Shown in pieces: positions 4,416 to 7,932 of a DNA stretch of 64,000 nt (position 1 is its first letter; every line of letters begins with the position of its first letter). Where the stretch lies: positions 186,001-250,000 of the forward strand of contig NZ_FOJP01000005.1 in NCBI RefSeq assembly GCF_900111835.1. Direction: 5' to 3'. The translations under genes and the position numbers were made by a program. This DNA is from Metapseudomonas otitidis (GTDB lineage: Bacteria; Pseudomonadota; Gammaproteobacteria; Pseudomonadales; Pseudomonadaceae). A model generated the notes under the pieces. It had not been told where the DNA came from and ran no database searches. It saw only the letters and a list, made by a program, of their open reading frames with translations.

Positions 4416-4622
4416 TCACCAGTGCCCGAAGATGGCGACCAGCACCGACAGTACACAGACATAGAGAGCGGTATCGAACAGCGCCTCGTGCCAGATCCAG
4501 CGCGCCAGGCCCAGCCGCTGCAGCGCCAGGCGCAGCACGCCGGTCACCAGCAGCGCCGCCAGGGCGTAGATCAGCAGCGGGCTGAGCAATACGCCGCCCA
4601 GTGACCATTCACGCAAGCCCAT
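4416..4622 (-). CDS. DUF1656 (AaeX-like) small membrane protein
   Basis: A 68-residue protein with two predicted transmembrane helices (about 7-32 and 45-65) and the DUF1656 pattern WSLGGVLLSPLLIYAL near the N-terminus. The ATG at 4622 follows a perfect AGGAGG by 7 bases, favouring it over an upstream start 7 codons earlier. It overlaps the 3' end of the FUSC gene by 14 bp and is followed by the fusion protein gene after 11 bp. AaeX proteins always travel with FUSC exporters; their biochemical role is unknown. Confidence 0.85.
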   Translation of the reverse strand: MGLREWSLGGVLLSPLLIYALAALLVTGVLRLALQRLGLARWIWHEALFDTALYVCVLSVLVAIFGHW

Positions 4623-6597
4623 AGCTCGCCTCCTGTTGTTCACACCACTGCCGCCAGCTCTGCCGCAACTGCAGCAAGGCCGCCAGGGCCAGCCGCCGGT
4701 CGATGCTGTTGCCGGCCTCGCGCAGGGCCTGGATCAGTTGTTCGGACGGCGCGTCCATCGCATCCGCCCGCTCCGGCGCCGGCCCCTGCTCCAGCAGTGG
4801 CTCGATCCGTTCGAGAAAGCGCGCCTCGGAGGCGCCGAGGGAGCGCTCCCCCACGGCCAGGCAACGGCGCAGGTGCAGCAGTTCGTCACCGATGTCGAGA
4901 CTGGTGATGCCGTCGTCCCAACGGTTGCGAGACTGGCTGGGCAGCGCCGGGTAGTGTCGGGCCAGCTGCAGCAGGCGGTCGGCCATGCGCCCGCCGAACC
5001 AGTTCTCCGCCCCCGCCAGGGTGCGGTGGGTGAGCCGGCCCAGGTCGCTGAAGGTGGCCCGCAGCAGCCGCCGGCCATGCCAGCCGGGGTGGGTCAGCAC
5101 GATGAGGCGGAACACCAGCACGGCGAAACCGACCCCAAGCAGGATGGACAGGGCTTCGTTGAGGAACACCGCAACGTCGAAGTGCATGGTGTTCTGCGGT
5201 GCGCACAGCACGATGAAGTGCAGGCAGAACGAGGTGGCCGTGCCGCTCAGGGCCGGCCGCGCCATGCCCAGGGTGCCGAAGAACAGCGGCACGCCGAGGG
5301 CCATGCAGAGCAGCGGGAAGCCGCTGAACTGGGGCAGCACCACCTGGCCGATGAAGAAGGCCACCGGCAGCGCATAGAGGATGCCACGCAGGAACATCAG
5401 GCCGATCTGCGCAGCGTTCTCGCGGCTGGCAAAGAGGCTGCAGACCACGCAGGTGAGGGTCAGCGCGCCGATGGAGGAGGTCCAGGCGGTGGCCATCCAG
5501 AAGGTCGCCAGCCCGAGGAAGGCCAGCCCGCTGCGGGAGCCGTAGAGCAAGGCCGTGGGCAGGTCGTGGTGCCAGGACAGGGGCGCCGAACTGTCCTCGG
5601 TGGGAGCGCCACGCTCAACGGCCTCCAGCGCTGCGGCGGCGGCCCGCACCTGGCGGAGGGTGACCGCCAGGCGCCCCAGGCAGTATTGCTGCACTACGCT
5701 CAGTTCGGGGGATTCGGCCGCCTCCAGCAGGCGCTGCCCCAGGGCTTCGAGGCGTGCCGGATCGGGTGACTCCAGCGCCTGTCGCACAGCCTCCAGCCAG
5801 GGGGCCAGACGCTCAGCCTCGTCGTCCGACAACTGCCGCCACTGGCGTGCCACCCCACGCGCCAGCCGCAGCACGCTGAGCAGGTCGCGGCTGAGCACCC
5901 GCAAGGCAGCGGCACGACGCCGGCCGCGCGCACCTTCGAACCAGGCGTGCTCGCGCTGGGCATCCACGGCCACCAGGCGCCCCAGGACACCCAGCAGCCC
6001 CTGGCGCTCGTAGGGCGCACCGTCCAGGGCCGAGCGGGCCGCACGGATGCCGCTCTCCCAGGCCTCGGTGGCCTGGCGCACCAGCTGGCGCTCCACACGC
6101 TGCGGCCAGATCAGCGCGCTGGTGGCGGTGGCACAGAGGATGCCGAGGCAGATCTCGGTGCAGCGGGCCACGGCCTGGTCGAAGACATTGAGCGGGTGGG
6201 CGATGGCCGGCAGGCCGATGATGGCCACCGTGTAGCCGGCCAGGACGAAGGCGTACGACCAGGCACTGCGCAGCATGGTGGAGGCCGCCGTGCACAGCGC
6301 CAGCCAGGTGGCCAGGACGAAGAGGAACAGCCAGGGCGTCTGGGCGAACAGCGCCATGATCACAACGGCCATGGTGGTCCCTACCAGGGTGCCGAGCAGC
6401 CGCGCCAGGCCCTTCTGCACCACCATCCCGGACAGCGGCTGGGCCACGATGAAGGCCGTCATCAGCGCCCATTGCGGCTGCTCCAGGCCGAAGCGCAGCG
6501 CACACCAGAGCGCCAGGCCGCCCCCGAGCAATGTCTTGATGGCGAACTGCAGGGCCGGGAGGTCGGGGGCGAGGAAGGCCTTCAGGGTTTCACGCAC
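4609..6597 (-). CDS. FUSC family aromatic-acid / fusaric-acid-type efflux permease (AaeB-like)
   Basis: A 662-residue inner-membrane exporter of the FUSC/PF04632 family. Two blocks of about five to six hydrophobic helices (about 15-160 and 345-500) are each followed by a long soluble region, the classic AaeB layout. GTG at 6597, preceded by AAGG, makes VRETLKAFLAPDLPAL the N-terminus, typical of the family; an ATG-like start 19 codons upstream is possible but less natural. It is first in an operon with DUF1656 and HlyD genes. Substrates of such pumps include fusaric acid and p-hydroxybenzoic acid; which one is used here cannot be told. Confidence 0.83.
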   Translation of the reverse strand: MRETLKAFLAPDLPALQFAIKTLLGGGLALWCALRFGLEQPQWALMTAFIVAQPLSGMVVQKGLARLLGTLVGTTMAVVIMALFAQTPWLFLFVLATWLALCTAASTMLRSAWSYAFVLAGYTVAIIGLPAIAHPLNVFDQAVARCTEICLGILCATATSALIWPQRVERQLVRQATEAWESGIRAARSALDGAPYERQGLLGVLGRLVAVDAQREHAWFEGARGRRRAAALRVLSRDLLSVLRLARGVARQWRQLSDDEAERLAPWLEAVRQALESPDPARLEALGQRLLEAAESPELSVVQQYCLGRLAVTLRQVRAAAAALEAVERGAPTEDSSAPLSWHHDLPTALLYGSRSGLAFLGLATFWMATAWTSSIGALTLTCVVCSLFASRENAAQIGLMFLRGILYALPVAFFIGQVVLPQFSGFPLLCMALGVPLFFGTLGMARPALSGTATSFCLHFIVLCAPQNTMHFDVAVFLNEALSILLGVGFAVLVFRLIVLTHPGWHGRRLLRATFSDLGRLTHRTLAGAENWFGGRMADRLLQLARHYPALPSQSRNRWDDGITSLDIGDELLHLRRCLAVGERSLGASEARFLERIEPLLEQGPAPERADAMDAPSEQLIQALREAGNSIDRRLALAALLQLRQSWRQWCEQQEASYGLA

Positions 6598-6745
6598 GTC
6601 GGGAACCTTGGAAGAGGTGCGGCAAGCATAGGCGGCCGCCCGCCTGTACGGCACGGCCCTGGATTCGTCTGATCATCTCCCCCCTCTCCTTCCCTGTCGA
6701 AAGGCTCTGAAATGCCCCATCCGGCGCAGGGGACCCCCTGGAAAA

Positions 6746-6759
6746 TTGACCTGGATCAG
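6746..6759. promoter_or_regulatory. Degenerate second FNR/Anr-like site
   Basis: TTGACCTGGATCAG keeps 8 of 10 defined bases of TTGAT-N4-ATCAA. Its centre is exactly 50 bp upstream of the perfect box at 6796. It could be an auxiliary site for the ccoM promoter or serve the divergent FUSC operon. Weak on its own. Confidence 0.35.
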
Positions 6760-6795: not shown

Positions 6796-6837
6796 TTGAT
6801 CCAGATCAATTTCGGCCCCCTGGCCCGGGTCTACCTT
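6796..6837 (+). promoter_or_regulatory. Anr/FNR box and class II promoter of ccoM
   Basis: TTGATCCAGATCAA at 6796-6809 is a perfect FNR-family palindrome (TTGAT-N4-ATCAA). A -10-like TACCTT lies at 6832-6837, which puts the box centre at about -41.5 from a start near 6844, the canonical class II activator position. This predicts induction at low oxygen by Anr (the Pseudomonas FNR). The perfect site and spacing are seen; the regulation is inferred. Confidence 0.8.
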
Positions 6838-6876
6838 TGACCCATCGAAACAAGACGCCAGACGCAGGAGGCCCTT

Positions 6877-6996
6877 ATGTTCGTCGATGTTGTGGTTCTA
6901 GCCGGTATCGGCACTGTTGGCCTGATGCTCGCCTTCTTCGGTGGCGTCGGATACTTCATCTGGAAGGACTCTCACAAGCGCGACAAGAAAGCGTAA
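6877..6996 (+). CDS. ccoM: CcoM-like small subunit of cbb3-type cytochrome c oxidase
   Basis: A 39-residue protein, easily missed by gene callers. It has a short periplasmic start MFVDVVVLAG, one transmembrane helix (about 5-29) ending GVGYFIWKDSH, and a lysine-rich cytoplasmic tail KRDKKA. This closely resembles the single-helix CcoM subunit found in the P. stutzeri cbb3 oxidase structure, which stabilises the complex. ATG at 6877 follows a perfect AGGAGG by 5 bases and the gene ends 38 bp before a strong terminator, so it is monocistronic. The Anr box upstream fits a gene for a high-affinity oxidase used in microaerobic growth. The ccoNOQP genes are not in this window. Assignment rests on remembered similarity. 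Confidence 0.8.
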   Translation: MFVDVVVLAGIGTVGLMLAFFGGVGYFIWKDSHKRDKKA

Positions 6997-7034
6997 GTCG
7001 AGTTCTCCAGGTACACAGGCACGCAAGGCACCTC

Positions 7035-7060
7035 GGGCGACTTCGGTCGCCCTTTTTTTC
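7035..7060 (+). terminator. Intrinsic terminator after ccoM
   Basis: A perfect 7-bp GC stem (7035-7041 with 7046-7052) closed by a TTCG tetraloop and followed by seven T. A textbook rho-independent terminator. Confidence 0.95.
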
Positions 7061-7135
7061 GTCCGTCGAAAATATCCCAGCCGGCACCGGGCGACACTCT
7101 GACCGCAGCCCATGACGGGCCGTTCAGGTTGGCGT

Positions 7136-7294
7136 TCAGCGCTTCTTCGGTTTGCTGCGGTTCTTCTTCGCCTTGCCCAGCGGCAGCGCCTTTTCGAAGG
7201 CCTGGCGCATGTCCACCAGCCGTTTCTCGTGCAGGTCATGGATGCGCTTGTCGCGCTCGGCGCCGAAATCGATCAGCTTGTCGTCATTGCTCAT
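7136..7294 (-). CDS. Small conserved Lys/Arg-rich protein of unknown function
   Basis: A 52-residue protein beginning MSNDDKLIDFGAERDKRIHD and ending in a very basic tail (KAKKNRSKPKKR). No signal peptide or membrane segment; a central charged helix is likely. The ATG at 7294 overlaps the stop of the alkB-like gene (ATGA), so the two are coupled. The basic tail could bind nucleic acid, which would fit a repair partner, but this is only inference. Confidence 0.7.
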   Translation of the reverse strand: MSNDDKLIDFGAERDKRIHDLHEKRLVDMRQAFEKALPLGKAKKNRSKPKKR

Positions 7295-7887
7295 GGGCGG
7301 ATCCAGCGGAAGGTGAGGTTGAGGCGTGGCTGGCAGGCGGCCCGGGTCTTGGCCACCTGGTGTTGCCAATGATGCTGCGTCGGCCCGCTCATGACCAGCA
7401 GCGCACCGTGTGCCAGTTCCAGCGAATGCTCGATGCGCCCGCTGCCCTTGCGGCGCAGGTCGAAGCGCCGGGTGCCACCGAGGTTCACCGACGCCACGGT
7501 GGGATCGGGCCCCAGTTCCGGCTCGTCGTCGCTGTGCCAGCCCATGGAGTCCTGGCCGTCCCGGTAGAGGTTCAGCAGCACGCCGTTGAAGGGCTGCCCC
7601 ACTTCTTCCTGCACGCGCTGGCGGATTTTCGCCAGCAGGGGCGTCCAGGGCAGCGGGCGGTGAACCAGGCCGGAATAGCGGTAGCTCGCCTCGGGGTCGC
7701 CGTACCAGGCCACCTGCCGGGGCACCCGGTAGTCCTGGCCGTGCAGGTGCACGACCGGCTGCTCCCAGGGCGTCTCCGCCAGCAGCCCGGCCAGCCATTC
7801 GTCGGCTTCCTCCACCGCCAGCCAGTGGCGCTCATGGCGCAGGCAGGCGTCCGGCAGCTCAAGGGGCAGGTCGTCGAACAGGCTCAT
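7291..7887 (-). CDS. AlkB-like 2-oxoglutarate/Fe(II) dioxygenase
   Basis: A 198-residue 2OG-Fe(II) oxygenase of the AlkB superfamily, which oxidatively removes alkyl groups from DNA or RNA bases. Visible residues: the iron ligands in WHSDDE (HxD) and the distal His in the TQHHWQHQV segment, followed by RLNLTFRWI, where Arg binds 2-oxoglutarate. The pattern NLYRDGQDSMGWHSDDE is typical of AlkB2/AlkB3-like proteins. I chose ATG at 7887 (MSLFDDLPLEL); the ribosome site is poor. Its stop overlaps the small basic protein gene downstream. Substrate (DNA, RNA or protein) not determined. Confidence 0.85.
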   Translation of the reverse strand: MSLFDDLPLELPDACLRHERHWLAVEEADEWLAGLLAETPWEQPVVHLHGQDYRVPRQVAWYGDPEASYRYSGLVHRPLPWTPLLAKIRQRVQEEVGQPFNGVLLNLYRDGQDSMGWHSDDEPELGPDPTVASVNLGGTRRFDLRRKGSGRIEHSLELAHGALLVMSGPTQHHWQHQVAKTRAACQPRLNLTFRWIRP

Positions 7888-7932
7888 GGGATGACCGATT
7901 GCGCAAACAGGGGGACACATTCTCCCACGACG

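Follow-up and report, generated by a model that had tools for sequence, protein, structure and literature searches.

Features of the locus

The window analysed here is a stretch of 64,000 nucleotides from Metapseudomonas otitidis (contig NZ_FOJP01000005.1), in which a short open reading frame (ORF) is preceded by an Anr-type promoter and followed by an intrinsic terminator (Table 1). The ORF begins with ATG, ends with TAA and encodes 39 amino acids, and its AGGAGG ends 5 nt before the start codon. The terminator is formed by the stem-loop GGGCGAC-TTCG-GTCGCCC (7035-7052) and the seven T residues behind it. An earlier reading of the sequence (the original prediction) had described a clean AGGAGG and a tetraloop terminator, both of which are present.

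Table 1 Coordinates of the features of the ccoM-PhrS locus within the window.
Feature	Position	Strand	Evidence
Second, weaker Anr-like site TTGACCTGGATCAG	6746..6759	+	2 mismatches to TTGATNNNNATCAA
Perfect Anr box TTGATCCAGATCAA (centre at -41.5 relative to predicted start)	6796..6809	+	sequence; genome-wide motif count
-10-like hexamer TACCTT	6832..6837	+	read in sequence
PhrS transcript (RF01673), predicted	6844..7061	+	Rfam 155.7 bits (gathering threshold 37), all 212 model positions
Shine-Dalgarno AGGAGG of ccoM	6866..6871	+	read in sequence
ccoM (39 codons + stop; putative cbb3 oxidase subunit CcoM, PhrS peptide)	6877..6996	+	NF041600 73.5 bits; PDB 5djq_N E 2.3e-13
creg pairing element GCACGCAAGGCA of PhrS	7019..7030	+	identical in 150/154 distinct loci
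Intrinsic terminator (7-bp stem, TTCG loop, 7 T)	7035..7059	+	read in sequence

The neighbouring genes of the window lie on the reverse strand at 4609-6654 and 7291-7920, together with a small gene ending at 7136 that encodes a short basic protein; homologues of these neighbours flank PhrS in several relatives. We take the gene at 4609-6654 to be inner-membrane transporter-like and that at 7291-7920 to be AlkB-like.

The ORF encodes CcoM

The product of the ORF was matched by the NCBIfam equivalog model NF041600 over its whole length (model positions 1-34 of 34) at 73.5 bits, against a cut-off of 40, with an E value of 1.3e-20. It also aligned over residues 1-35 with chain N of PDB entry 5DJQ (E 2.3e-13), 25 of these 35 residues being identical when counted on the alignment. 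The PDB entry names this chain "putative uncharacterized protein"; we take 5DJQ to be the P. stutzeri cbb3 oxidase and its chain N to be CcoM. No family was returned by a Pfam search of the product. CcoM is described as a 36-residue subunit of the P. stutzeri cbb3 oxidase (PMC10433244). From these matches, we identify the product of the ORF as CcoM. Like P. stutzeri CcoM it has one hydrophobic stretch and, here, no ccoN on the same contig; unlike it, it has 39 residues and is encoded within a small RNA.

The original prediction of a CcoM-like ORF was therefore correct, and the comparison with the P. stutzeri protein that it had called for showed similarity over residues 1-35. It had also placed the gene away from any ccoNOQP genes in the window. 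Three ccoN matches exceeded the cut-off in the M. otitidis genome (two on contig C13 and one on C5), so that, judged by ccoN, a cbb3 oxidase is encoded, and none of them was on the window's contig, in agreement with that placement. CcoM itself is present in a single copy in this genome, and a search of plasmid and phage records found no relatives of CcoM at E 0.1. Annotation, which according to the original prediction could easily lose the gene, need not do so now that an equivalog model exists in NCBIfam.

The transcript matches the small RNA PhrS

Contrary to the original prediction of a gene standing alone, the ORF is that of the small RNA PhrS, whose 3′ element is kept by some relatives without the ORF. 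PhrS occurs once in the M. otitidis genome. The full-length score is over threshold, creg lies 3′ of the ORF and the promoter is of the class II Anr type; we therefore assign the locus as an orthologue of phrS, a dual-function RNA gene, an assignment that forms part of an explanation in which, taken whole, we place high confidence.

In P. aeruginosa, PhrS is described as induced at low oxygen in an Anr-dependent manner, the kind of response that the original prediction had set as its test, and as stimulating pqsR through pairing (PMC8395346). According to the same 2021 review, the function of its conserved peptide of 37 residues "has so far remained elusive". The RNA is reported to sediment with Hfq (PMC8545117). 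Its creg element (nt 169-182) is reported to be required for the control of pqsR (PMC9308961) and for control of the CRISPR leader, on which the ORF alone had no effect (PMC6700203), and antR is a further reported target (PMC11949849). The M. otitidis locus resembles P. aeruginosa PhrS (RF01673) in matching the model from end to end and in having an Anr box, creg, a TTCG-loop terminator and an ORF of 37-39 codons, and differs in that the peptide, of elusive function in the published account, is here assigned to CcoM.

When translated, the Rfam PhrS consensus scored 67.2 bits with the CcoM model. In one relative (G353), PhrS has 213 nt and an ORF of 37 amino acids, which are the published P. 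aeruginosa sizes, and the ORF scored 77.6 bits with the same model. Across 198 Pseudomonadaceae genomes, PhrS was over the cut-off in 178 and CcoM in 173. The long-puzzling PhrS peptide is very probably CcoM. A word search of the literature, which would miss papers that name either one differently, returned no statement of this identity; CcoM is absent from the PhrS passages of PMC12491237, as is PhrS from the CcoM passages of PMC10433244 and PMC9264385. The identity is implicit in NCBI's CcoM model but is not spelled out there.

A conserved tandem Anr-type promoter

The Anr box is centred at 6802.5 and the TACCTT hexamer begins 29.5 bp further on. A start at +41.5 from the box centre would fall on base 6844, which is the first base of the Rfam PhrS match, and the perfect box in class II geometry that had been predicted was thus confirmed. 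Perfect TTGATNNNNATCAA sites occur eight times in the 6.34-Mb genome (the reversed control motif does not occur), so we estimate the chance of a perfect box at exactly such a place to be of the order of 1e-4.

Conservation was analysed in 154 loci differing over the 320 nt around the start codon, a set that, having been retrieved by score, favours loci with strong CcoM or PhrS matches. Every one of the 154 has a box 76-89 bp ahead of the start codon, which is perfect in 25 loci and has one mismatch in 102 and two in 27. Counted from the first base of the box, a TANNNT hexamer follows at 35-36 nt in 150 loci. The second Anr-like site of M. otitidis, 50 bp upstream of the main box, belongs to a conserved tandem arrangement that the original prediction had missed. 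Of the 150 loci whose sequence extends far enough, 122 carry such a site, with two mismatches or fewer, 48-52 bp upstream of the proximal box. At the remaining offsets between 14 and 114, none of the 150 has one.

The first ccoN of the genome has the identical 14-letter box upstream, 106 bp before its profile-match start. Such shared Anr-type control would be expected if the RNA served the peptide's own process in the style of SgrS/SgrT, with creg directly controlling the cbb3 oxidase mRNAs. We consider this unlikely. There is no perfect complement of creg in the M. otitidis genome, and around the three ccoN starts, as derived from the profile matches, creg finds at most six consecutive complementary nucleotides between -300 and +60 with G-U pairs allowed; a direct creg target at ccoN is therefore not supported. 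The RNA is moreover kept without ccoN in genus g201 and in G241 (g208), as described below.

Separate conservation of the ORF and creg

In the 154 loci, the mean major-base frequency was.864,.930 and.630 at codon positions 1, 2 and 3, respectively, and creg was exact in 150. The ORF is therefore held as a protein and creg is held outside the ORF; the one predicted transcript here carries an ORF with a coding signature and a near-invariant creg. creg was also exact in the further genera g205 (4/4), g211 (4), g210 (2), g203 (1), g212 (3), g206 (1), g204 (6), g2 (1) and g197 (1/2, the other being unparsed), and altered by 2-3 letters in g202 (3/3) and by 3 in g213 (1/1).

These data bear on whether the locus is a plain ccoM mRNA, with the PhrS match reflecting only the ORF and a common terminator and no regulatory RNA being made. 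The ORF does make up much of the PhrS model, and seven of 20 genomes read in genus g200 keep the box and ORF without creg and would be just such plain mRNAs. Against this stand the near-identity of creg outside the ORF, set against a mean of.630 at third codon positions, the 14 loci described below that keep creg and terminator without a CcoM-like ORF, and the report that P. aeruginosa PhrS acts as an RNA through creg (PMC6700203). We judge a plain mRNA to be very unlikely at the M. otitidis locus and retain the reading as an orthologue of phrS.

CcoM follows the cbb3 oxidase

Comparing ccoN with CcoM over the 198 genomes, we found both in 172, neither in 18, ccoN alone in six and CcoM alone in two (Fisher p 1.6e-18, a value that ignores shared ancestry and may stem from few independent losses, perhaps a handful). 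Six genomes whose ccoN matches were all weak (E about 1e-6 to 1e-8) were scored as lacking ccoN, and G266 (78% complete, ccoN E 9e-27) as having it; by this count all 13 sampled g201 genomes are without ccoN. The ORF is missing in 18 of the 20 ccoN-less genomes. In the two others (G326 and G340, both g201) it is diverged and scores near the cut-off (41 bits in G326). The genomes with ccoN and no CcoM match are G230, G254, G264 (87% complete), G281, G282 and G413. As these six show, CcoM can be absent, truncated or overlooked despite the presence of ccoN, so that it is not a universal requirement. Across these genomes CcoM appears mostly to be kept where the cbb3 oxidase is kept, and the RNA part to follow ccoN less.

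Shortened peptides were found in two genomes. G238 (g206), with only a weak ccoN match, has two tandem PhrS-like genes (L249 and L228) about 680 bp apart, each with creg, terminator, Anr box and its own, differing peptide of about 22 codons. G254, in which ccoN is present, has one copy with a peptide of about 22 amino acids and an intact creg.

The peptide of a regulatory RNA might instead do a job other than in the oxidase. The shortened peptides of G238 and G254 could be read in this way, as could the ORFs kept by two g201 genomes without ccoN. A homologue of the peptide is nevertheless solved as a chain of 5DJQ, which we take to be the P. stutzeri oxidase, the ORF is missing from nearly all ccoN-less genomes, and within g201 the two remaining ORFs are diverged while G318 has a 16-codon remnant only. 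In P. aeruginosa, restoring the ORF only is reported not to have restored transcription of the CRISPR locus (PMC6700203), as would suit another job, whereas CcoM is described as a cbb3 subunit (PMC10433244). We hold a different job for the peptide to be very unlikely and keep its assignment to the oxidase.

The RNA is kept without the ORF

Among the 18 genomes with neither ccoN nor CcoM, creg followed by a T run was found in 14: ten of g201, G318 (g201), G238 and G278 (g206) and G241 (g208). In 14 loci (the same ten of g201, G281, G230, G241 and G278) creg and terminator are present with no CcoM-like ORF; the box has one mismatch or none in 12 of these loci, two in G281 and three in G230. In the ten g201 loci the box, with 0-1 mismatch, stands so close to creg (76-81 bp before it) that an ORF would not fit in between, and the predicted RNA consists of a 5′ hairpin, creg and the terminator. 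G281 (g209), which keeps ccoN, has the same compact layout with a predicted RNA of 73 nt. The predicted RNAs of eleven ORF-less loci are 68-74 nt long. The others are longer: 184 nt in G241, 162 nt in G278 (70% complete) and 105 nt, with a long hairpin and a start set from a weak box, in G230 (g198; L232), which also keeps ccoN.

In 11 of the 14 loci, no more than 6 of 200 shuffles folded as well as the segment before creg; among these loci, L239, L240 and L241 share one RNA and L233 and L234 another. The segment did not stand out from the shuffles in L232 (with a forced start), L238 and L245. Covariation of the 5′ hairpin over six ORF-less RNAs was not significant: all cells were paired, with one double change, and 171 of 500 shuffles reached the same value.

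When the flanks of seven ORF-less loci were compared with the window, four adjoined the same immediate neighbour as PhrS. Three g201 loci (L233, L235 and L242) adjoin a homologue of the window gene at 4609-6654, an arrangement that PhrS also has in the window itself and in G353. In G281 the adjoining gene is a homologue of the short one that flanks PhrS on its opposite side. The loci of G230 and G278 are next to, or not far from, homologues of window genes slightly further off, and no window neighbour was found in the flanks of G241. This shared position argues that the ORF was probably lost in place in at least four of the loci.

Apparent stages of ccoM decay can be seen in the ccoN-less g201 genomes, from a diverged ORF (L224 in G326, L225 in G340) to a 16-codon remnant (L227 in G318) and none in ten others. 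creg stays exact throughout this series.

The ORF is kept without creg

CcoM was found in 31 genomes of g200, of which 20 were read. Thirteen of the 20 carry the creg variant GCTCGCAAGGC, as do three g200 loci in the 154-locus set. In the remaining seven (L267, L268, L272, L275, L278, L280 and L283), an Anr box with 1-2 mismatches and the CcoM ORF are present with no creg within 200 nt. Other inverted repeats lie downstream in some of these loci, and read-through is possible, since another frame may begin about 100 nt on. Together, the ORF-less RNA loci and the creg-less ccoM loci indicate that protein and RNA have therefore been lost in both directions.

Both halves can also be missing. Four g207 genomes lack ccoN and CcoM; the best PhrS match in each of three contained no creg, and G256 gave no match, so the RNA does not always outlive the oxidase. 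The three g207 loci (L236 in G268, L243 in G240 and L247 in G280) are in genomes of about 3 Mb, from which both halves seem to have been lost.

Search outside the Pseudomonadaceae

A class-wide search of 229 genomes from 196 genera returned PhrS and CcoM over the cut-off in the same two Pseudomonadaceae genomes. The additional weak matches, in G094 and G222, had the appearance of a terminator on its own and of part of a helix. With a 40-position model of creg and terminator, 82 of the 229 genomes were matched at E 0.05. Outside the family, the best match of each of seven genomes (L255-L261) was inspected and showed terminators or apparent coding sequence only; 73 more non-family genomes had weaker matches. 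In these 229 genomes no relative of either half was found outside the family, with seven weak model matches inspected.

Discussion

Four lines of evidence carry our explanation of this locus, namely the identity of the gene, the identity of the RNA, the conservation of the promoter and the separate loss of the two halves, and we are strongly confident in that explanation as a whole. The locus would thus consist of two separable modules under one Anr switch, an oxidase-subunit mRNA and a base-pairing RNA. As oxygen falls, Anr would bind the box centred at -41.5, possibly with help from the second site 50 bp upstream, and a transcript of about 218 nt would start. The 5′ two thirds would be translated into CcoM, a single-helix subunit that may join or stabilise the cbb3 oxidase made from distant ccoNOQP operons, while the 3′ third, with creg and the terminator, may act on other mRNAs as a base-pairing RNA. 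Anr control, Hfq association, creg pairing and oxidase membership are taken from published work in P. aeruginosa and P. stutzeri, and we infer that both outputs work in M. otitidis.

SgrS/SgrT and RNAIII are dual-function RNAs. Like these, and like VcdRP (PMC8672173), the locus combines a pairing element and a small ORF on one transcript; unlike them, its peptide is assigned as an enzyme subunit, and relatives show each half alone. These natural RNA-only and protein-only relatives would offer ready-made cases of separation of function.

The targets of the RNA cannot be the oxidase only, because the RNA is kept without ccoN and creg finds at most six nucleotides near ccoN here. A family-wide set of targets would explain the near-invariant creg. 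PhrS is reportedly the "keystone sRNA" of a P. aeruginosa interactome study, with hundreds of partners. That phrase appears, for an RNA from such a study, in a title in the reference list of PMC11949849.

The M. otitidis locus is an ordinary member of its family, and its value lies in the identity of PhrS with CcoM and in the two-way separation of the halves. Reading PhrS as CcoM joins two literatures, that of a well-studied P. aeruginosa sRNA and that of a cbb3 oxidase subunit. Deletion or overexpression of phrS may then alter a low-oxygen oxidase subunit together with the RNA; the phrS overexpression described in 2026 for ZoBell, the strain where CcoM was found, may likewise change the oxidase subunit (PMC13086519).

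On balance, we lean towards a broader view whose parts are to be taken jointly: PhrS may not be primarily a quorum-sensing RNA. It would be an old Pseudomonadaceae composite of an oxidase-subunit mRNA and an independent low-oxygen pairing RNA with family-wide, non-PQS targets, the RNA of about 70 nt outliving the loss of cbb3 in some genera and being droppable in others while CcoM stays. If this composite reading is true, controlling pqsR would be a role that an ancient creg took on late and locally.
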